In this document: positions 45,124 to 56,719 of the stretch, one piece after another | Layout: every line of letters begins with the position of its first letter | How positions within the stretch are numbered: the first letter of the stretch is position 1 | Origin: Streptococcus sanguinis | GTDB taxonomy: Bacteria; Bacillota; Bacilli; Lactobacillales; Streptococcaceae | Direction of reading: 5' to 3' | Length of the DNA stretch: 64,000 nt | NCBI RefSeq assembly: GCF_013343115.1 | Contig: NZ_CP054570.1 | Span: 2,106,501-2,170,500 of the forward strand | The notes under the pieces: generated by a model | Databases searched by the model: none | The model's input: the letters and a program-made list of their open reading frames with translations, nothing else | What the model was told of the DNA's origin: nothing | Program-made: the position numbers and the translations under genes

Positions 45124-45876
45124 ATGAAAGCACTACAAAGGCTGATGCGGCAGCAAATCGGTCTCTTAGGTATGCTGGGTGTACTTGTCATCTGGCAGGT
45201 CATGGGCTGGCTCAAGCTCTTGCCCAAGTTTATCCTGCCGACACCTCTGGAAATCGGTCAGGCCTTTATCAGAGATGCTGGATTTCTAGCAAGTCATAGC
45301 TGGGCGACCTTAAAAGTAGCTTTGCTGGGTTTAGTCTTGGGCGTCATCTTGGCTTGTATACTAGCTATACTCATGGACAGCATGAGCTGGCTCAATGATT
45401 TAATTTATCCCATGATGGTCGTGGTGCAGACGATTCCGACCATTGCTTTGGCGCCAATTCTGGTTCTCTGGCTGGGTTATGGGATTTTGCCCAAGATTGT
45501 GCTGATTATTCTGACGACAACCTTTCCGATTATCGTCAGTATTCTGGATGGTTTTCGGCATTGTGACCGGGATACTATGACTCTCTTTGAGCTTATGCAG
45601 GCCAATCGCTGGCAGATTCTCTGGCATTTTAAGATTCCAGCTAGTCTGCCCTATTTCTATGCGGGCTTGCGCGTCAGTGTTTCCTATGCCTTTATCACGA
45701 CTGTGGTTTCCGAATGGCTGGGCGGTTTCGAAGGCTTGGGTGTTTATATGATTCAGTCCAAGAAACTTTTCCAGTACGACACCATGTTTTCCATTATCAT
45801 ATTGGTTTCGGTCATCAGTCTTCTGGGGATGAAGCTGGTGGCTGTCAGTGAAAAATATGTTATTAAGTGGAAATAG
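45124..45876 (+). CDS. thiX: Thiamine-related ABC transporter permease
   Basis: 250 residues, binding-protein-dependent permease (BPD_transp_1/SsuC-like) with about six membrane helices and an EAA-type loop around ELMQANRWQILWHFKIPASLPYFYAGLRVSV. Location after a TPP riboswitch and before an NMT1-type binding protein and ATPase identifies it as ThiX of a ThiXYZ importer, thought to take up thiamine precursors (hydroxymethylpyrimidine derivatives). The ATG at 45124 has GGAGG but at a long distance (about 12 bases), so the start is less certain. Confidence 0.82.
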   Translation: MKALQRLMRQQIGLLGMLGVLVIWQVMGWLKLLPKFILPTPLEIGQAFIRDAGFLASHSWATLKVALLGLVLGVILACILAILMDSMSWLNDLIYPMMVVVQTIPTIALAPILVLWLGYGILPKIVLIILTTTFPIIVSILDGFRHCDRDTMTLFELMQANRWQILWHFKIPASLPYFYAGLRVSVSYAFITTVVSEWLGGFEGLGVYMIQSKKLFQYDTMFSIIILVSVISLLGMKLVAVSEKYVIKWK

Positions 45877-45920
45877 GAGCTCAGCTCTGCTATTTTCCAA
45901 AGAAAGAAAAGAGGATAATG

Positions 45921-46919
45921 ATGAAAAAAAGTTATAAAGTCTTGTTGGCAGGTTTGGCTACCGTGTCAATCATTGGCCTAGCGGCCTGCGGTCAGTCGAA
46001 ATCTACGTCTGAGAGCAAGGATAAAAAGATTGATTTTATCTTAGACTGGTCACCTAACACCAATCATACCGGCCTTTATGTAGCTCAAGAAAAGGGATAT
46101 TTCAAGGAAGCAGGCGTGGATGTGGATATCAAGTTGCCGCCTGAAGATAGCAGTTCGGATCTGATTATCAACGGCAAGGCGCCTTTTGGTATTTACTTCC
46201 AGGACTCCATGGCTAAAAAACTGGATAAGGGCGCAGAAATCACAGCTGTCGCGGCCATTGTAGAGCATAATACTTCGGGCATTATTTCAAAGAAGTCTGC
46301 AGGGATTACAGGGCCTAAGGATCTGGTTGGGAAGAAATATGGCACCTGGAATGATCCAGTGGAGCTAGGCATGCTCAAAACTTTGGTTGAAAGCCAAGGC
46401 GGCCAGTTTGATGAAGTGGAAAAAGTTCCCAACAACGATTCCAACTCCATTACGCCGATTGAAAATGGTTTGTTTGATGCAGCCTGGATTTATCATGGCT
46501 GGGATGGTATCATGGCAGAGACTCAAGGCATGGACACGAATTTCTTTTACATGAAGGACTATGTCAAGGAATTTGACTATTATTCTCCAGTGATTATTGC
46601 TAATAATGACTATCTGAAGAAGAATCCGGACGAGGCGAAAAAGGTCCTGCAGGCTATCAAGAAGGGTTATCAATATGCCATGGAGCATCCTGAAGAAGCG
46701 GCGGATATTTTAATCAAGCATGCGCCAGAGTTGAAAAATAAGCGTGACATTGTCTTGGCTTCCCAAAAATATCTGTCTGAGCAATATGCATCGGATAAGG
46801 ACAAGTGGGGTCAGTTTGAGGCTAGCCGCTGGAATGCCTTTTACAAATGGGCCAAGGATAAGGGTATCGTGGACAATGACTTGAGTGACAAGGGATTTAG
46901 CAACGATTATATAAAATAA
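45921..46919 (+). CDS. thiY: Thiamine-precursor binding lipoprotein
   Basis: 332 residues. Signal peptide with lipobox GLAACG, so lipid-anchored outside the membrane. The body is an NMT1/THI5-like domain (FILDWSPNTNHTGLYVAQEKGYF, then NGLFDAAWIYHGWDG) typical of formylaminopyrimidine or HMP binding proteins. ATG 45921 is preferred to 45918 for Shine-Dalgarno spacing (GAGG). It overlaps thiZ by one base. Confidence 0.87.
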   Translation: MKKSYKVLLAGLATVSIIGLAACGQSKSTSESKDKKIDFILDWSPNTNHTGLYVAQEKGYFKEAGVDVDIKLPPEDSSSDLIINGKAPFGIYFQDSMAKKLDKGAEITAVAAIVEHNTSGIISKKSAGITGPKDLVGKKYGTWNDPVELGMLKTLVESQGGQFDEVEKVPNNDSNSITPIENGLFDAAWIYHGWDGIMAETQGMDTNFFYMKDYVKEFDYYSPVIIANNDYLKKNPDEAKKVLQAIKKGYQYAMEHPEEAADILIKHAPELKNKRDIVLASQKYLSEQYASDKDKWGQFEASRWNAFYKWAKDKGIVDNDLSDKGFSNDYIK

Positions 46920-47641
46920 TGACAGAAATTAAACTTGAAAATGTAAGCTATGCTTATGATGAGCAGCAGATTTTGAAAGATATCAGCCTACAGGTAGAAG
47001 CAGGCCAGGTCGTAGCGATTTTGGGACCTAGCGGAGTCGGGAAAACTACCCTCTTTAATCTAATTGCTGGGATTTTGGAGGTCCAGTCGGGTAGGATTGT
47101 CCTAGACGGGCAGGAAAATCCCAAGGGCCGGGTGAGTTATATGCTGCAGAAGGACTTGCTGCTGGAGCACAAGACGGTGCTAGGCAATGTCATCTTGCCC
47201 CTCTTAATCCGAAAAGTATCAAAAAAGGAAGCGACGGAGCAGGCAACCCAGATTTTGAAGGAGTTTGGACTCTTTGATGTGGCAGATAAGTATCCACATG
47301 AGCTGAGCGGGGGGATGCGGCAGCGCGTGGCTCTGCTACGGACCTATATGTTCGGTCACAGGCTATTTCTTCTGGACGAGGCCTTTAGTGCTCTGGATGA
47401 GCTGACTAAGATGGAGCTGCACGCTTGGTATCTGGATATTCATCGTAGGCTGGGTCTGACGACTCTTCTCATTACTCATAGCATTGAGGAAGCTCTGGCT
47501 CTCAGCGACCATATCTATATTCTGAAAAATCGGCCTGGGCAAATTGTTGCAGATCTCCAACTGACTTGGTCAGACAGTGAGGATAAGGAACTGCAGAAGT
47601 TACGATACAAGCAGGAGATTTTGAAGATTTTGGGAGTGTGA
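46919..47641 (+). CDS. thiZ: Thiamine-related ABC transporter ATPase
   Basis: 240 residues, one ABC ATPase of the nitrate/taurine (SsuB-like) type: Walker A GPSGVGKTTLF, Q loop MLQKDLLLEHKTVLGNV, signature LSGGMRQRVALL and Walker B LFLLDEAFSALD. It powers ThiX. The start codon shares a base with the thiY stop. Confidence 0.88.
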   Translation: MTEIKLENVSYAYDEQQILKDISLQVEAGQVVAILGPSGVGKTTLFNLIAGILEVQSGRIVLDGQENPKGRVSYMLQKDLLLEHKTVLGNVILPLLIRKVSKKEATEQATQILKEFGLFDVADKYPHELSGGMRQRVALLRTYMFGHRLFLLDEAFSALDELTKMELHAWYLDIHRRLGLTTLLITHSIEEALALSDHIYILKNRPGQIVADLQLTWSDSEDKELQKLRYKQEILKILGV

Positions 47642-48515: not shown

Positions 48516-48529
48516 TTTGTATTTGTTCA

Positions 48530-48556
48530 GAAGCCGGGAAACCGGCTTCTTTTTTA
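48530..48556 (+). terminator. Terminator after rpsD
   Basis: GAAGCCGG, GAAA tetraloop, CCGGCTTC, then seven T. Confidence 0.95.
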
Positions 48557-48767: not shown

Positions 48768-49745
48768 ATGAAGGTTCTAGTGACAGGAGCGACTGGCTTT
48801 CTAGGAAAGTATGTTGTTGAAGAGCTGGCTGAACAAGGCTATCAGGTGCGAGCTTTTGGTCGTAATCTGAAGGCTGGTCGGCAGTTAGAAGGTCCTTTAG
48901 TAGAGTTTTTTGCTGGTGATTTTACCAGAGAAGAAGAAATTTTTGCAGCCTGCGAAGGAGTGGATGCAGTGGTACACGCTGGTGCTCTCTCAACGATTTG
49001 GGGACCATGGGAGCAGTTTTATCAGACCAATGTAGTAGGAACCAAGTTGGTTATGGAAGCCTGCCGGCATTTTGGAATGCAAAGACTGGTCTATATTTCC
49101 TCCCCAAGTGTTTATGCTGCTGCGCGTGATCAACTTGCTATTAAAGAAGAGGCTGCTCCTCAGGAAAACGAGCTGAATTTTTATATCAAAAGCAAGCTCA
49201 TGGCTGAGCGGATTGTCCGAAGTTATCCTCAAGTTCCATCGGTTATCTTGCGTCCAAGAGGGCTTTTTGGTATTGGGGATACCAGTATCTTTCCTAGGAT
49301 TCTGCGCTTAAGCCAAAAACTGGCGATTCCACTCATCAGAAATGGCCAGCAAATGATGGACATGACCTGTGTGGAAAATGTGGCCTTTGCTGTTCGACTG
49401 GCTTTGGAAATTCCAGAAGCGCAAGGACAGGTTTACAATATTACCAACGGAGAATCCCGTAGTTTCAAGGATATGCTGGATGAAGCTTTAGATGGTTTAC
49501 AGGTTCGTAAACGTTATGTTAAGTTACCTGCTGCTTTTCTAGGTATTCTGGCACAGGGTTTTGAAAGCTTTTATCGCTTCTTTCACATTGAAAAAGAGCC
49601 ACCTTTGACTCTTTACACTTATTACTTAATGCGTTACAGTCAAACGCTGGATATATCAGCAGCAGTAAGAGATTTGGGCTATCAACCCAAGTTGACAATC
49701 AGTGAAGGGATTGCAAAATATGTCCAACATTATCGAGAAAATTGA
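48768..49745 (+). CDS. NAD(P)-dependent epimerase/dehydratase, 3-beta-HSD-like SDR
   Basis: 325 residues, an extended short-chain dehydrogenase: Rossmann GATGFLGKYVVEEL at the start, DFTREEEIFAACEGVDAVVH, and catalytic Tyr-x-x-x-Lys in FYIKSKLMAE. The substrate domain contains RPRGLFGIGDTS. It resembles the 3-beta-hydroxysteroid dehydrogenase/OleD group, which acts on beta-hydroxy or beta-keto carbonyl compounds. First gene of a tight four-gene cluster, overlapping the next by 26 bases. A role in reducing or oxidising a ketosynthase product is inference. Confidence 0.82.
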   Translation: MKVLVTGATGFLGKYVVEELAEQGYQVRAFGRNLKAGRQLEGPLVEFFAGDFTREEEIFAACEGVDAVVHAGALSTIWGPWEQFYQTNVVGTKLVMEACRHFGMQRLVYISSPSVYAAARDQLAIKEEAAPQENELNFYIKSKLMAERIVRSYPQVPSVILRPRGLFGIGDTSIFPRILRLSQKLAIPLIRNGQQMMDMTCVENVAFAVRLALEIPEAQGQVYNITNGESRSFKDMLDEALDGLQVRKRYVKLPAAFLGILAQGFESFYRFFHIEKEPPLTLYTYYLMRYSQTLDISAAVRDLGYQPKLTISEGIAKYVQHYREN

Positions 49746-50547
49746 GTATCTTCACCCTGGGCGCTGCAGCAGTCACTTGCAGCAGATGTTTAAGGGAGTT
49801 GCCAAGAAAAAAATGATTTTTCCAGCTGGTGTTTTCCTCTTGAAGCATCGTGAGCAAGGCTATATTCTCTACGACACTGGCTATTCTCCAGCTATTCTGA
49901 AGCCCAATTTTAAATACTGGCTTTATGGTCTGGGAACGCCTGTTGATATGTCAGAAGAGGAGCGTGTAGATCGTCTGCTTGAGCAAAAAGGAATTGCGCC
50001 AGAAGATATTTCTTATGTCATCTTGTCGCACTTGCATCCAGATCACATCGGCGGAGCCGCTTTCTTTCCCAAGGCCCGCTTCATTCTGACCAAGACCGTT
50101 TTCAAAACGTATCAGCATGCCAAACTGAAGGATTTGATTTTTAAGGAATTTCTTCCGCAGGATTTTGAGAGTCGGTTGGAAGTAGTGGAACCTCAGCAGG
50201 TCCAAGCAGCATTCCTCTATCGTAAGACAGTTGACTTGTTTGGGGATGGCAGTATATATCTGGCTTCAGTTGATGGCCATGCTGCTGGGCAAGCTTGTCT
50301 CTTTTTGCCAGATTATCATCTGTTTATCGGAGCTGATTTGTGCTGGGGCGTGGATCTGTTGCCGTATACAGAGCAGATGCGTTTCTTGCCGTCACTGATC
50401 CAGAATAACAAGGAAGAATATATGGCCGGTGTGGCCTTACTTCGGCAGTTGCTTGCTGTCGGTTATCAGGTGCTAGTCAGCCATGATCCGGCTGAGAGAG
50501 CGGAGCAGATTTTGTATGAAACTAGGAACATTTCTAAAAACCTTTAG
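49720..50547 (+). CDS. Metallo-beta-lactamase-fold hydrolase
   Basis: 275 residues. The metal-binding motif is intact as SHLHPDHIGG (HxHxDH), with later ligands in DGHAAGQ and SHDP. Related proteins include lactonases and thioesterase-like hydrolases, so hydrolysis of an ester, lactone or thioester is plausible. It overlaps genes on both sides (26 and 32 bases), a sign of strict co-translation. The ATG at 49720 is my preferred start; an in-frame GTG six codons earlier has comparable support. Confidence 0.8.
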   Translation: MSNIIEKIEYLHPGRCSSHLQQMFKGVAKKKMIFPAGVFLLKHREQGYILYDTGYSPAILKPNFKYWLYGLGTPVDMSEEERVDRLLEQKGIAPEDISYVILSHLHPDHIGGAAFFPKARFILTKTVFKTYQHAKLKDLIFKEFLPQDFESRLEVVEPQQVQAAFLYRKTVDLFGDGSIYLASVDGHAAGQACLFLPDYHLFIGADLCWGVDLLPYTEQMRFLPSLIQNNKEEYMAGVALLRQLLAVGYQVLVSHDPAERAEQILYETRNISKNL

Positions 50548-51775
50548 CGTCATGCGCTGGGGGCATCGATTTAAAGACCGACAGGCATTAGAACGCTATC
50601 AAGTCAAGGCTTTAGCAATCTATCGGGAATTTCTGCAGCAGGAATCGCCTTATTTTAAATCAGGCATTCCAGCAGATTTTAAGATGAATAAGGCCTTTAT
50701 GATGGAGCATTTCAATGAGCTCAATACTCAGGGGCTGGATCGTGATGAGTTACTAGCCTTGGCTCTGGAGAGCGAGCGGACACGTGATTTCAGCCCCATG
50801 ATAGGAGAAATTGCTGTTGGCCTGTCTTCAGGAACATCTGGTCACCGAGGCTTGTTTGTCACCACTGAAAAGGAGCGCAGTATGTGGGCGGCAGCTATCT
50901 TGGCCAAGATGCTGCCTAAAGGCAAACTCTTTGGACATAAAATAGCCTTCTTTCTTCGGGCAGATAACCAACTCTATCAGACTGTCAATTCAGGCTTGAT
51001 TTCTCTGGAGTATTTTGATACTTTTCAGGGAGCCGAAGAGCATGTAGAGCGTTTGAATGCTTACCAGCCAACGATTTTGGTAGCGCCAGCATCAATGCTC
51101 TTGGAGCTGGCAAAACAAGTCCAGGCAGGGAATTTGCAGATTGCCCCTAGCAAAGTCGTATCAGTGGCAGAAATTTTGGAAGAGCCAGATCAGCAGAGTA
51201 TTCAAGAAGGATTTGGTCTAAAAAAGGTGGATCAGGTTTACCAAGCGACCGAGGGCTTTTTAGCCTGCAGCTGTGCCTACGGTAATCTTCATCTAAATGA
51301 AGACATTGTCCATGTAGATAAGCACTACTTGGATGATAGGCGCTTTTACCCAATTATTACGGATTTCAAGCGGACTTCTCAGCCAATTTTTCAATATGAG
51401 TTGAATGATATCTTGGTAGAAAATCCTGAACCTTGCCCCTGCGGTTCGGTCTTTACACGGATTGATAGGATTGAGGGCCGGTCGGATGATATTTTCATGT
51501 TTGAAAATGCTGCAGGTCAGTCGGTGGAGGTCTTTCCAGACTTTATCCGCCGTTGTCTGCTCTTGGTTGATGGGATTGGAGAATATCAAGTCGCTCAGAA
51601 AAAGGACTACTCGCTGACCATTGCTATCGAACATCGTAGTCAGCAGCGAGAAGACGAGATTATCCAGCAGTTTCAGAATTTGGCGACTGATAAAGACTTT
51701 CTTATACCGGCTATTTCTTTTGAAGATTATCAGCGGGACAGAAGCCGTAAGTTGAAACGTATCTATCGGGCTTAA
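50516..51775 (+). CDS. Adenylate-forming enzyme, F390 synthetase/PaaK-like
   Basis: 419 residues. The ATP-binding motif GLSSGTSGHRGLF, the YQATEGFLACSC region and the GRSDDIFMF hinge with its Asp are all present, and a late Lys (RDRSRKLKRIYR) could be catalytic. CPCG near residue 310 resembles a metal-binding loop seen in phenylacetate-CoA ligase relatives. It should activate a carboxylic acid with ATP for transfer to CoA, a carrier protein or a second molecule. No carrier-protein gene is adjacent. Substrate unknown. Confidence 0.82.
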   Translation: MKLGTFLKTFSVMRWGHRFKDRQALERYQVKALAIYREFLQQESPYFKSGIPADFKMNKAFMMEHFNELNTQGLDRDELLALALESERTRDFSPMIGEIAVGLSSGTSGHRGLFVTTEKERSMWAAAILAKMLPKGKLFGHKIAFFLRADNQLYQTVNSGLISLEYFDTFQGAEEHVERLNAYQPTILVAPASMLLELAKQVQAGNLQIAPSKVVSVAEILEEPDQQSIQEGFGLKKVDQVYQATEGFLACSCAYGNLHLNEDIVHVDKHYLDDRRFYPIITDFKRTSQPIFQYELNDILVENPEPCPCGSVFTRIDRIEGRSDDIFMFENAAGQSVEVFPDFIRRCLLLVDGIGEYQVAQKKDYSLTIAIEHRSQQREDEIIQQFQNLATDKDFLIPAISFEDYQRDRSRKLKRIYRA

Positions 51776-51875
51776 GAATGCTCCAAGTGGAAAAACATAT
51801 GAATCAGAGGCTGAAGTGCTTTGGCAGTTTACCTAGCTATTGAGCAGCCCCAAGTCTGACAAGAAGGAGTTTAAT

Positions 51876-52820
51876 ATGACAGCAGTAAAGAATCATATAA
51901 AGATTGTTGGTTATGGTACGCATCTACCTAGAAATACTGTGACTTTTAAGGATCAGACCCGTTATCGAGTGGTGGAAAATGAAGAAACCCAGCTTTCCAT
52001 GGCTGTTAAGGCGATTGAAAAAGCCCTAGAGCAAGCGGGCTTGACAATCAAAGACATCGATTGTATCGTGTCAGCCAGTGCGGTGGGTGTCCAGCCTATT
52101 CCTTGTACAGCGGCCCTGATTCATGAGTTGGTAGCCAAGGGCTTGTCCATTCCAGCCATGGATATCAATACGACTTGCACCAGCTTTATCTCGGCTTTGA
52201 GTCTCATGTCTCATTTGTTGGAGGCTGGTGAGTATCATAGAATCCTCATCGTGTCCAGTGAGGTTGGAAGTTTGGGTCTCAATCCCAATCAGAAGGAAAG
52301 TTTTGAGTTGTTCAGTGACGGGGCGGCTGCTTTGATTTTTGAAGCAACAGAGGAAGAGAGAGGGGTCATCTCCAGCCTGCAGCGGACCTGGTCTGAAGGA
52401 GCTCACGATACAGAGATTCGCGGTGGATTGACATCGTTTCAGCCTAAGGAGTATTCGGATGCTACCAAGACTCACTACATGTTTGACATGAATGGTAAGA
52501 AGATTCTCTTGCTCTCTGCCAGAAAAATTCCAGAAATGTTTAAAGAATTTAAAGAAAAGAGTGGCCTCAGTCTGTCTGACTTGGATTATATCATTCCGCA
52601 TCAGGCCAGTCGTGCCCTGCCAATGGTCATGCGCAGCTTGGGTATTCCTGATGATAAATACCTTAATATTGTGCAAGACTATGGGAATATGGTGTCAGTA
52701 GCAGTGCCTTTTTCTCTCTGCTATGCTCTGGAGCGTAATCTAGTCAAGGAAGGGGACACCATCGCTCTGATGGGAACAGCAGCTGGAATGACAGTTAATA
52801 TGCTGGCTATGAAATTATAA
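51876..52820 (+). CDS. 3-oxoacyl-ACP synthase III-like condensing enzyme
   Basis: 314 residues, thiolase fold. The FabH-type triad is complete: Cys in INTTCTSF, His in IIPHQASRALP, Asn in DYGNMVSVAV. It is not the housekeeping FabH of the fatty-acid operon, because none of the fab genes are nearby; it travels with the SDR, hydrolase and adenylating enzyme. It could condense an activated acid with malonyl-ACP or another acyl unit. The ATG at 51876 has AGAAGGAG upstream. A strong hairpin follows. Confidence 0.85.
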   Translation: MTAVKNHIKIVGYGTHLPRNTVTFKDQTRYRVVENEETQLSMAVKAIEKALEQAGLTIKDIDCIVSASAVGVQPIPCTAALIHELVAKGLSIPAMDINTTCTSFISALSLMSHLLEAGEYHRILIVSSEVGSLGLNPNQKESFELFSDGAAALIFEATEEERGVISSLQRTWSEGAHDTEIRGGLTSFQPKEYSDATKTHYMFDMNGKKILLLSARKIPEMFKEFKEKSGLSLSDLDYIIPHQASRALPMVMRSLGIPDDKYLNIVQDYGNMVSVAVPFSLCYALERNLVKEGDTIALMGTAAGMTVNMLAMKL

Positions 52821-52832
52821 TACAATAAAAAT

Positions 52833-52868
52833 AGGGTGTACAGAACCAAAAGAGGTTTTGTACACCCT
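52833..52868 (+). terminator. Terminator after the four-gene cluster
   Basis: AGGGTGTACAGAACC pairs over 15 positions with GGTTTTGTACACCCT (one G-U); followed by GTTTAATTTTTC. Confidence 0.85.
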
Positions 52869-52887
52869 GTTTAATTTTTCAAAATAT

Positions 52888-52923: not shown

Positions 52924-53454
52924 TTACAGCATTTTCAAAAGAAATTCTGCTATTTGTTCAGGACTTTCTTTTTTTCCTCTAGCAATCCACATTTGGCAGA
53001 CACCAAAGAAGGCATTGGCGAGAAAGACTCTGCTGTATTCTTTTTCAAAATGATTGTAAACACGTCTACTAAAACGGTCCTGCAGACTATCTGCCAACAT
53101 TACCTGCAGCTTATGGCGCAGAAAATTCTGAATCTCTTTCGTGCCGTTTTCTGTCAAAAGAGCAGCCAAGAGTGGCTCTAGCTGGAGGAACTGAAAGACC
53201 TCTGTAATCGCAGTTTGAACATCTTCTTGATTATTCTCAAAAATATATCCCAACTGATGAAAGAGGTTTTGCTGATAACGTTCAATCATATCGTACTTGT
53301 CCTTGTAGTGAGTATAAAAACTACTACGGCTGATGCCAGCAGCTTGAGCTAGCTGTACAGTAGTGATATGGTCGAAGGACTGCTTATGCAGTAGTGAAAC
53401 CATGGCTCTTTCAATAATAGCCTTGGTTTTTCGGCGTTTATTGCTTTCTAACAT
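52924..53454 (-). CDS. TetR/AcrR-family transcriptional regulator
   Basis: 176 residues. The N-terminal HTH (about 10-55) has TVQLAQAAGISRSSFYTHYKDKYDMIE; the C-terminal part is a helical ligand domain of the TetR_C_7 (DUF)/YhgE-associated kind. It faces the four-gene cluster (convergent) and is divergent from the YhgE-type gene 0.8 kb away, and could control either. Its promoter overlaps a perfect palindrome, so it is probably autoregulated. Confidence 0.85.
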   Translation of the reverse strand: MLESNKRRKTKAIIERAMVSLLHKQSFDHITTVQLAQAAGISRSSFYTHYKDKYDMIERYQQNLFHQLGYIFENNQEDVQTAITEVFQFLQLEPLLAALLTENGTKEIQNFLRHKLQVMLADSLQDRFSRRVYNHFEKEYSRVFLANAFFGVCQMWIARGKKESPEQIAEFLLKML

Positions 53455-54295: not shown

Positions 54296-56719
54296 ATGTT
54301 AAGAGAATGGAAAGCTATTTTAAAAAAGCCGACTTTTATCATTGTGATGTTGGGAGTCTCTATGATTCCTGCCTTGTATAATGTTATTTTCTTGAGCTCC
54401 ATGTGGGATCCGTATGGAAAGGTATCGGACTTGCCAGTGGCGGTCGTCAATCAGGATAAAGCTGTAACTGCTAGTGGCAAGACCTTGTCTATAGGTGAGG
54501 ATGTTGTTTCCAGCCTCAAGGAAAATAAAAATCTGGATTTTCACTTTGTCAGTAAAGAAGATGCTCAAAATGGTTTGGAAAAGGGTGATTACTACATGGT
54601 TGTGACGCTTCCAAGTGATTTATCTGAACGTGCAGCCAGTATTTTGACAGATAATCCTCAACAAATGAAGATTGACTATCAAACGTCTAGCGGCCACAGT
54701 TTTATTGCTGGTAAGATGAGTGATTCAGCCATGGCTTCTTTGAAGCAGACGGTGGCGCAAAATGTAACTGATACTTATACAAACGCCTTATTTAAGAATA
54801 TGGGAGACCTAAAAAATGGCTTGGTGAAGGCATCTGATGGTGCTCAGCAATTAGCATCTGGCAGCCAACAACTAGGTTCAGGAAGTCAGACAATTGCAGA
54901 TAACTTAAGGACTCTGAATCAAGCTACGAGCAAATTATCGTTCGGTGTAGCTCAATTTAACACAGGACTACAGACTTATACTGGGAGTGTTGCACAAGTA
55001 TCGTCTGGACTGGATAGTTTGTCAAACGGGATAAACACTTATGCAAATGGTGTAAGTACTGTGGCCAAAGGTGCAAATCAGCTGTCGGGTCGATCAGCAG
55101 ACTTATTGGGTGGAGTCCAACAGCTTACTCAGTCAGGAGATGGAGTTCAGGCCTTATCGACAGGTGTAACGAATCTGAACACTGGCTTGGCTACATTAAA
55201 GTCTTCGGTAGATACAACCTTAGCTAACAATCAGCAAAACGTGAATGATTTGGCAACTGGCTTGACTCAGTTGAATGCTAGTATTCAAGCTGCAGCAAGT
55301 GACTCAGCAGTGTCAACAGACAGCATTGAAACTTCGTTAACCAGTGTAGCAGGATCCGCTCAGTCTATCATTAATAATAATCAAGATGCTAGGGCTGCAG
55401 CTTTAGCAAGTGTCCAAGGGACGAGCACTTATCAAGGACTTTCTAGTGAGGCTAAGGCTGAGATTGATGCAGCAGTCAGTGCTAGTCAAGCGGGAAGTGA
55501 CCAATCTGCTCAGGCAATTTTATCCGAAGTTGATATGATGAGGGCTTCTCTTGAAGTGATAAAAGCTACCAGTCAGACGAAGATTAGTCAATTGGGAAGC
55601 ACTTCTACTCAGGTCTTACCCCAAGCATCTAGCATGATAAATGGTCTTTATAATGGGTTGTCAACGATTAGTACTAGCCTCGGTTCAGCAAGTGGAGGAG
55701 CCAATCAACTAGTTGCAGGTATAGATACCTTAAATGAAAAACTAACGACTGGCGCGACACAATTGGAACAAGGGGTGACAAGCTATACCAATTCAGTCGG
55801 TCAGCTATCTGAGGGGACATCAGCTTTGGCAAGTAAGAACCCTGATTTGCTAGCAAATACAACAAAATTAGCAAACGGGGCAGCCCAATTAACAGATAAA
55901 TCGCCAGAATTGACCTCTAGTTTCGGGAACTTAGCAGATGGAACCAATCAATTAGCGAGCGGAACAGGGAAGCTGGCTGATGGCAGCAGTATTTTAACAG
56001 ATAATCTCTCTAAACTTACTGTGGGAACAAGTGATTTGTCCAATAGCCTTTCAGATGCAGGTGATAAATTGTCGGCTGTTTCAACCAAGGAAGACAATGC
56101 AAAAACTCTGGCAGATCCTCTGACACTGAGCAAGACAGATGAGAACAAGGTAGAGAAAAACGGCATTGGGATGGCGCCTTATATGATTTCAGTAGCTTTA
56201 TTTGTGGCGGCTATTTCAACCAACATCATCTTTAGTACACTTCCATCGGGGCAAGAACCTAGGACGAAACGAGATTGGCTGAAGGCCCGCATAGAGGTAA
56301 ATGGAGTAATTTCCGTCGTGGCAGGTGTTTTGGTCTATGGTGCTGTGCACTTGATAGGCTTATCTGCTAACCATGAGTGGGCAACCCTTGGTTTGATTGT
56401 CCTAGCCAGCATGACCTTTATGGCTCTTGTGACCGCTTTGGTTACTTGGGATAGCAAGCTTGGCGCCTTTGCCTCTCTGATTCTCTTGCTCTTACAGCTG
56501 GCTTCTAGTGCAGGAACCTATCCGCTGGAGCTGACTAGTAAGATTTTCCAAGTTATCAACCCTTGGCTGCCCATGAGCTATTCTGTATCGGGCTTACGCC
56601 AAACGATTTCCATGAATGGTCAAATTGGTAGTCAGGTCCTCTTCCTTGCTTTTGTTTTAGTTCTTTTCATGGTACTTGGCACTCTGGTCTATCGAACAGA
56701 TAAAAAACAGCTAGCTTAA
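54296..56719 (+). CDS. YhgE/Pip-domain membrane protein
   Basis: 807 residues. An N-terminal membrane helix (about 13-33) with the YhgE motif SMIPALYNVIFLSSMWDPYG is followed by VAVVNQDKA. A long extracellular region (about 150-600) consists of repeats of the type LasGsqqLgsGs with heptad-like Leu/Gly/Ser spacing. The C-terminal part has five or six helices in an ABC2_membrane-like domain (about 620-800). YhgE/Pip proteins relate to phage-infection proteins and to membrane parts of type VII and transport systems; the transported substance is unknown. A strong Shine-Dalgarno sequence (GGAGG) precedes the start. No ATPase gene is adjacent. Confidence 0.87.
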   Translation: MLREWKAILKKPTFIIVMLGVSMIPALYNVIFLSSMWDPYGKVSDLPVAVVNQDKAVTASGKTLSIGEDVVSSLKENKNLDFHFVSKEDAQNGLEKGDYYMVVTLPSDLSERAASILTDNPQQMKIDYQTSSGHSFIAGKMSDSAMASLKQTVAQNVTDTYTNALFKNMGDLKNGLVKASDGAQQLASGSQQLGSGSQTIADNLRTLNQATSKLSFGVAQFNTGLQTYTGSVAQVSSGLDSLSNGINTYANGVSTVAKGANQLSGRSADLLGGVQQLTQSGDGVQALSTGVTNLNTGLATLKSSVDTTLANNQQNVNDLATGLTQLNASIQAAASDSAVSTDSIETSLTSVAGSAQSIINNNQDARAAALASVQGTSTYQGLSSEAKAEIDAAVSASQAGSDQSAQAILSEVDMMRASLEVIKATSQTKISQLGSTSTQVLPQASSMINGLYNGLSTISTSLGSASGGANQLVAGIDTLNEKLTTGATQLEQGVTSYTNSVGQLSEGTSALASKNPDLLANTTKLANGAAQLTDKSPELTSSFGNLADGTNQLASGTGKLADGSSILTDNLSKLTVGTSDLSNSLSDAGDKLSAVSTKEDNAKTLADPLTLSKTDENKVEKNGIGMAPYMISVALFVAAISTNIIFSTLPSGQEPRTKRDWLKARIEVNGVISVVAGVLVYGAVHLIGLSANHEWATLGLIVLASMTFMALVTALVTWDSKLGAFASLILLLLQLASSAGTYPLELTSKIFQVINPWLPMSYSVSGLRQTISMNGQIGSQVLFLAFVLVLFMVLGTLVYRTDKKQLA

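Follow-up and report, generated by a model that had tools for sequence, protein, structure and literature searches.

The four genes discussed here lie at positions 48768 to 52820 of a 64,000-nucleotide stretch of the Streptococcus sanguinis genome (contig NZ_CP054570.1, positions 2,106,501 to 2,170,500; hereafter the window) and encode, all on the + strand, an extended short-chain dehydrogenase (SDR, 48768..49745), a hydrolase of the metallo-β-lactamase fold (MBL, 49720..50547), an adenylate-forming enzyme (ADE, 50516..51775) and a ketosynthase III (KAS, 51876..52820). Together they form a real conserved unit, for which we predict a function in Claisen-type lipid assembly, and which is probably half of a pathway that continues in a distant partner operon. 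On balance, we lean towards a scenario in which this core would build a β-hydroxy long-chain acyl lipid by Claisen chemistry, while the distant operon would finish a glycolipid in the window genome (G000, a single contig of 2.36 Mb). The initial annotation of the cluster, made from the letters of the window, could not see this probable continuation.

That the four genes belong together is apparent from their distribution. When overlapping samples of 147 genomes of the genus, 196 of the family, 246 of the order and 398 of the phylum were searched, TIGR02304, the family of ADE, was found above its cut-off in 39, 47, 19 and 9 genomes, respectively. Exactly the same 39 genus genomes encode an orthologue of KAS (59–100% identical) among the 64/147 that are found with the window protein at E ≤ 1e-30, the other 25 having only FabH-like matches of at most 33% identity; other listed matches at this threshold are at most 33% identical as well, except for the second piece of a broken copy in G066. 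All four genes are present in 20/20 loci examined (SDR being truncated where the stretch ends) and in 71 of the 80 named loci, which are the best 80 of 493 relatives, with genes called by tblastn using the window proteins. Two of the remaining nine are cyanobacterial loci with ADE alone, and seven miss one gene at the thresholds used. The order KAS-[ATP-grasp]-SDR-MBL-ADE prevails among these loci. In addition, the protein distance matrices of the four core proteins correlate with each other (r 0.886–0.945 over 78/87 rows; r 0.838–0.923 when the rows of the window genus are left out), although these values come with no control gene and so include general shared ancestry. The initial annotation had named a failure of the four genes to co-occur in other genomes as the finding that would speak against it; the opposite was found, KAS and TIGR02304 overlapping in 39/39 genomes.

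KAS is a relative of FabH with an intact triad, its C101, H242 and N271 being at least 95% conserved in alignments. It is, however, distinct from the housekeeping enzyme, a possibility on which the initial annotation had made its reading depend. KAS scores 163.4 bits against the FabH model TIGR00747, the cut-off of which is 292.1, and a separate fabH is found at G000:C1:229258-230220 (360.3 bits), with a product about 29% identical to KAS; an assignment to housekeeping FabH was rejected on these two grounds. The kinship with FabH and the intact triad could still be accommodated by an ordinary accessory modification of fatty acids, carried out by a FabH paralogue with housekeeping-like reductases and without a dedicated product. 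Such an explanation is highly improbable in view of the separate fabH, the strict co-inheritance with an ATP-dependent ligase and the conserved company of MBL and SDR. The best NCBIfam match of KAS is PRK07204 (NF005541; 293.3 bits, below the cut-off of 402), a model against which the KAS of Paenibacillus L058, Escherichia coli, Fusobacterium and Pseudomonas FeN3W score 467.6, 331.9, 303.1 and 267.9 bits, respectively. Among solved structures the closest are 4v2p (148 bits) and CorB (4yuc, 136 bits), and OleA (3s23 group, 63 bits) is more distant from KAS in this PDB comparison than are these two and FabH, with weaker matches of KAS also to the PQS enzyme 3h76 (67 bits) and to PqsC (64 bits). 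The entry 4v2p is listed only as 'ketosynthase' and we take it to be MxnB, since a Val-to-Cys spacing of 27 fits V94 and C121.

An important clue to the chemistry of KAS comes from a single position. The glutamate of OleA (E117) and PpyS (E105) is Val94 in MxnB and CorB of the myxopyronin and corallopyronin systems (PMC4578411), and through this valine the position was equated with Ile75, followed by Pro76, in the window KAS. Ile or Leu is found there in 84/84 cluster KAS (77 from the 80 named loci, six from other loci of the family, and that of the window) and in 7/7 KAS of a cross-lineage comparison. In X. campestris OleA the glutamate was found to be essential, and of the OleA-type proteins aligned in the same paper two lack it, all others having it (PMC7064751). 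Since Ile or Leu takes its place, KAS lacks the base with which OleA and PpyS deprotonate a plain acyl chain, and its nucleophile is more likely to be a malonyl or 3-oxo compound, as it is for FabH or MxnB. The product of KAS would then be a 3-oxo thioester, and the conserved MBL could be accounted for as the hydrolase that sets the 3-oxo acid free. MxnB and CorB, although they are the closest solved structures, differ in that they work with multimodular polyketide synthase/non-ribosomal peptide synthetase assembly lines (PMC5724707), of which there are none among the genes of either operon.

The other three enzymes are equally well preserved with respect to their catalytic residues. The best NCBIfam match of SDR is OleD (207.9 bits, below the cut-off of 580) and its best solved relative is a sterol-4-α-carboxylate 3-dehydrogenase, two enzymes that act on 3-oxo/3-hydroxy acids; its S111, Y139 and K143 are at least 95% conserved in alignments. 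MBL is closest to N-acyl-homoserine lactonases, with an AttM-type lactonase as best NCBIfam match (77.5 bits, below the cut-off of 390) and lactonases as nearest solved relatives, and the metal-ligand set of these enzymes is present in full (H104, H106, D108, H109, H187, D206 and H255), all seven positions being invariant and at least 95% conserved in alignments. Three residues after the bridging Asp, lactonases have a Tyr with a catalytic role, which is present in the 5/5 lactonase alignments shown, whereas MBL has Trp209, invariant in 36 selected rows; a standard N-acyl-homoserine lactonase was rejected for this reason. ADE matches TIGR02304 with 546.8 bits (cut-off 251.9), in agreement with its early placement in an F390 synthetase-like clade, and its solved relatives are PaaK-like ligases. 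Its SSGTSG loop, E257 and K423 (430-aa numbering) are at least 95% conserved in alignments, and the presence of a phosphate loop, an acidic motif and a C-terminal Lys makes it likely that ADE forms an acyl-adenylate, from which a lactone, a CoA ester or a direct transfer might follow. An in-frame ATG at 50483 provides ADE with an alternative start, but relatives favour 50516.

The cluster had originally been likened to OleABCD, with MBL in place of OleB, and part of this parallel stands. Both systems have a thiolase-fold condensing enzyme and, adjacent to it, an OleD-like SDR and ATP-dependent acid activation, OleD being the best family match of SDR in the window and OleD-type models also ranking first for its E. 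coli counterpart, and one oleACD cluster, in A. atraurantiacus, includes a glycosyltransferase and a P450 (PMC7064751). In a true Ole-type route, two acyl-CoAs would be condensed head to head, reduced and closed to a β-lactone, which MBL, with its lactonase relatives, might open or decarboxylate unless the lactone itself is the product. We consider this unlikely. The OleA glutamate is absent from every cluster KAS compared, OleA is a distant match of KAS, the solved relatives of ADE are PaaK-like and, according to a survey, ole clusters were not found in Firmicutes (PMC7158056). Literal membership in the Ole family was rejected, on account of the missing glutamate, the OleD score (207.9/580) and the PaaK-like ADE. 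As for MBL, which is indeed present, it may replace the thioester hydrolysis of OleA itself, which is reported to release a free β-keto acid (PMC4578411), rather than OleB. No OleB-type gene was found among the proteins of the window cluster, the search having been confined to these and not extended to the rest of the genome.

PqsA, PqsD and PqsE likewise bring together an adenylating ligase, a ketosynthase III and an MBL hydrolase, PqsE cleaving a 3-oxo thioester. By analogy, ADE could make an aryl- or acyl-CoA that KAS extends or joins and MBL cleaves as a 3-oxo thioester, yielding a small diffusible signal of Pqs or pyrone type. ADE does group with PaaK-like ligases, and KAS is nearest to the pyrone-forming CorB and to 4v2p, with its distant matches to 3h76 and PqsC. 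However, the MBL profile has 45 PDB matches at E ≤ 0.001 and PqsE is none of them, a reductase of OleD type is conserved alongside the core, and the tailoring genes described below are lipid or glycosyl genes, which is why a Pqs-like signal also seems improbable to us.

The case for a glycolipid pathway made by two operons starts from a macrolide-type glycosyltransferase gene, GT1, which adjoins the core in 10/16 loci of the family (15 plus the window). In the window no GT1 or remnant was found upstream of SDR, between 47501 and 48800 (best GT1 match E 6.4). A homologue 43% identical to the cluster-adjacent GT1 is encoded at G000:C1:800804-802057, in an operon SDR2-GT21-HYP-GT1 (G000:C1:798265-802072, which is L155:5266-9073) located approximately 1.35 Mb from the cluster. 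GT1 is found in 38/39 genomes with the core versus 2/108 without it (Fisher p 1.3e-31, with genomes that are not independent), one of these two matches being a fragment of 133 residues. GT21 and HYP occur in the same 15/147 genomes (HYP of G038 has a stop), 14 of which have the core, and SDR2 is found at 40% identity or more in the same 15, four others having only SDR matches of at most 35%. SDR2 has mycolate reductase as best match (103.2 bits, below the cut-off of 380) and GT21 matches Glyco_transf_21 and HpnI, while searches with the small protein HYP gave nothing in Pfam or NCBIfam at E ≤ 0.01 and nothing meaningful in the PDB; the conserved Ser123, Asp173 and His192 of HYP suggest, as a motif reading only, an α/β hydrolase.

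In several genomes the two gene sets are actually joined. Eight genes are contiguous, in the order SDR2-GT21-HYP-GT1-SDR-MBL-ADE-KAS, in a locus of the same genus (L141, with a gap of approximately 470 bases before KAS) and in L162 and L163, which belong to two other families of the order. Fusobacterium vincentii has the same order minus GT1 (L171, seven genes, on the 2.1 Mb record NZ_CP084075.1 labelled as a plasmid), with a KAS 60% identical to that of the window, suggesting transfer between phyla. In Paenibacillus caui (L064) GT21-HYP-GT1 come after ADE, HYP reading as two open reading frames, and in a cyanobacterial metagenome-assembled genome (L120) they are divergent from SDR-MBL-ADE, KAS not being found on the stretch examined. 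Moreover, two loci (L146 and L147) from other genomes of the genus that have the partner operon (L170 and L169) retain only remnants of the core-adjacent GT1. It is the contiguity, the co-occurrence and these GT1 remnants that would make a single pathway of the two operons in the window genome. A broken KAS (G066:C2:294461-295401) and a broken GT1 (G076:C8:519-1759) suggest that the pathway is decaying in some lineages.

Elsewhere, the core is found with other companions. Of the 80 named loci, 73 have an ATP-grasp gene and 2 the GT21/HYP/GT1 set; no locus combines the two, and 5, including the two loci with ADE alone, have neither. L142, from the sole core genome of the 39 without GT1 (G033, same genus), and L165 have an ATP-grasp and an acetyltransferase-like gene instead. 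The E. coli version consists of seven genes, KAS-SDR-MBL-ADE followed by genes for a PAP2 phosphatase, an FA_hydroxylase and an FA_desaturase, and lies between narI and purU in both records examined (one of them L180:3001-9882 of NZ_CP051661.1, narI to tRNA-Tyr/purU). It is matched in 672/5426 complete E. coli genomes, in 671 of them over 80% or more of the 6.9 kb query. Its ADE gives the strongest match seen to TIGR02304 (748.5 bits), the two best models of its SDR are OleD-type reductases, the best model of its KAS is PRK07204, and KAS and SDR are each 33% identical to those of the window. Pseudomonas sp. FeN3W and Ketogulonicigenium carry the four-gene core. When the window is compared with E. 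coli, Fusobacterium, Pontibacillus, P. urinalis, Pseudomonas and Ketogulonicigenium, the diagnostic residues agree apart from the Ile/Leu exchange in KAS and three further points: a single glycine of the E. coli SDR, the first residue of the phosphate loop in the Ketogulonicigenium ADE (Thr in place of Ser) and the Cys/His set of the Pseudomonas FeN3W ADE.

Some relatives of single core genes keep different company. In the cyanobacterial loci L077 and L094, relatives of ADE score 469 and 461 bits, and none of its three core partners was detected on the stretch examined. On plasmids of Pseudomonas Leaf58 and P. amygdali, the megaplasmid loci being L177 and L178, the annotation shows a TIGR02304-type gene with only an MBL gene nearby (L177) or with no core partner (L178). 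On the Priestia megaterium plasmid L174 (NZ_CP085446.1), genes for an acyl carrier protein and an MMPL transporter adjoin that for a related ketosynthase III, the other core genes not being seen on the stretch examined. One E. coli record labelled as a plasmid, L175 (NZ_CP141085.1), carries narGHJI, purU, rssAB and galU, which are normally chromosomal, and may be a chromosomal piece.

A number of findings weigh against a glycolipid made by two operons. One genome, G134 (L167, G134:C1), has the partner operon and neither a TIGR02304 match nor a cluster KAS, while GT21 and HYP are absent from 25/39 core genomes, which makes these two genes optional. Added to the four-gene versions without glycosyl genes in Pseudomonas sp. 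FeN3W, Ketogulonicigenium, L057 and L066, this is what would be expected if the four genes acted alone and the distant operon were a separate glycolipid pathway co-inherited by lineage. Nevertheless, the contiguous runs in Fusobacterium and in three genomes that each represent a different family of the order, together with the distribution of GT1 in core and core-less genomes, make such independence quite unlikely. Other difficulties for the two-operon glycolipid scenario concern the proteins themselves. In the GT1 tree the genus falls into two separate groups, and the tree resolves neither their kinship to the copies in contiguous clusters nor the origin of the two copies. Stop codons occur in 15/43 GT1 rows, but 13 of these rows have an open frame of 439–476 aa listed, and the stops probably lie in an over-long query start. 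Only for ADE, among the window proteins, does the best NCBIfam match pass its cut-off, and PaaK-like enzymes often act on aryl acids. Finally, the KAS of E. coli and Ketogulonicigenium are 31–33% identical to that of the window, about as far as FabH (29%), so that it is the arrangement of the genes, the best-matching family and the accompanying genes, rather than identity, that argue for their kinship.

With these reservations, the glycolipid scenario can be outlined as follows. From an acyl thioester and a second unit, KAS would make a 3-oxoacyl thioester, which MBL would hydrolyse to the free 3-oxo acid. The OleD-like SDR would reduce this to a 3-hydroxy acid, the carboxylate of which ADE would activate with ATP for closure of a β-lactone ring or for transfer, and SDR2, GT21, GT1 and HYP would modify and glycosylate the product. 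We infer this order of steps; what was observed is the gene content, motifs, co-occurrence, contiguity and lineage-specific tailoring sets. The proposed lipid character comes from the OleD-like SDR, the mycolate-reductase-like SDR2, the Glyco_transf_21/HpnI matches of GT21 and the FA_hydroxylase, FA_desaturase and PAP2 genes of E. coli. This lipid character and the glycosylation are the parts of the prediction that we trust most, and we are less sure of a condensation of two chains.

Another system with similar logic is mycolic acid assembly, in which FadD32, Pks13 and a reductase share the tasks. As in the scheme above, an acid is adenylated, a Claisen condensation takes place and a 3-oxo lipid is reduced, and SDR2 has a mycolate reductase as its best match, although its score remains far from the cut-off. 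A Pks13-like protein was not found among the genes of either operon, to which this search, not covering the rest of the genome, was limited. It is tempting to go one step further and imagine an undescribed class of lipids with a mycolate- or β-lactone-like core of a two-chain 3-hydroxy acid, made by a module that has spread across phyla and is combined with exchangeable finishing sets (two glycosyltransferases; ATP-grasp and acyltransferase; phosphatase, fatty-acid hydroxylase and desaturase), the glycolipid of the window genome coming from two unlinked operons. We regard this extended version as tentative and rather doubtful. If the scenario outlined above is right, 39/147 genomes of the genus and 671/5426 complete E. 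coli genomes carry a lipid pathway without a product that we found assigned, and Ole/mycolate-type logic would enter a phylum in which a survey found no ole clusters (PMC7158056). The comparison offers a likely order of enzymes and an unlinked partner operon that annotation of a single locus would miss, and turns the label 'F390 synthetase-related' into a testable lipid hypothesis.

To our knowledge, TIGR02304, to which the ADE of both the window and E. coli belong, has no assigned reaction. Neither 'TIGR02304' nor 'F390 synthetase-related' was found mentioned in the literature searched, which left out preprints and most subscription papers, and no description of the four-gene cluster was seen in the available parts of the literature matches listed, a search that did not extend to the E. 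coli version. A paper on a fatty-acid gene cluster of D. psychrophila proposes that an F390-synthetase-like ligase could help to attach glycerol (PMC2649909), and PMC12403116 was rejected as a description of the cluster as it concerns a different one, both as judged from the parts available. The notion of a conserved neighbourhood without known product, put forward initially, has held up in that the unit is conserved and no product was found for it, but not as a literal Ole system.

The boundaries of the cluster correspond to what was first described. SDR and MBL overlap by 26 bases, MBL and ADE by 32, and a gap of 100 bases (51776-51875) precedes KAS; intact motifs were found in all four enzymes. 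A terminator-like stem after rpsD (48529..48550, + strand) marks the upstream boundary and a 19-pair terminator-like hairpin with a T tail after KAS (52829..52872, + strand) the downstream one, the excess of such sites over shuffles being weak evidence in itself (14 in 10 kb versus 8.7 ± 4.2). The two stems are the first and third entries among these sites. No open reading frame resembling an acyl carrier protein was seen by eye among those of at least 80 aa, shorter ones not being covered. In megablast searches with parts of the window, plasmids gave no match and phages only short, tRNA-sized ones among the matches listed. A gene for a TetR-type regulator (52924-53454) is convergent with KAS, and one for a YhgE/Pip membrane protein lies at 54296-56719; in L001/L145 a 75% identical TetR is the neighbour of KAS, and no gene of YhgE size was seen next to this TetR. 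On the other side, ABC transporter genes for a substrate-binding protein and an ATPase are located near the cluster (45867-47641), and homologues of these are found on the KAS side in L139, L148 and L149.

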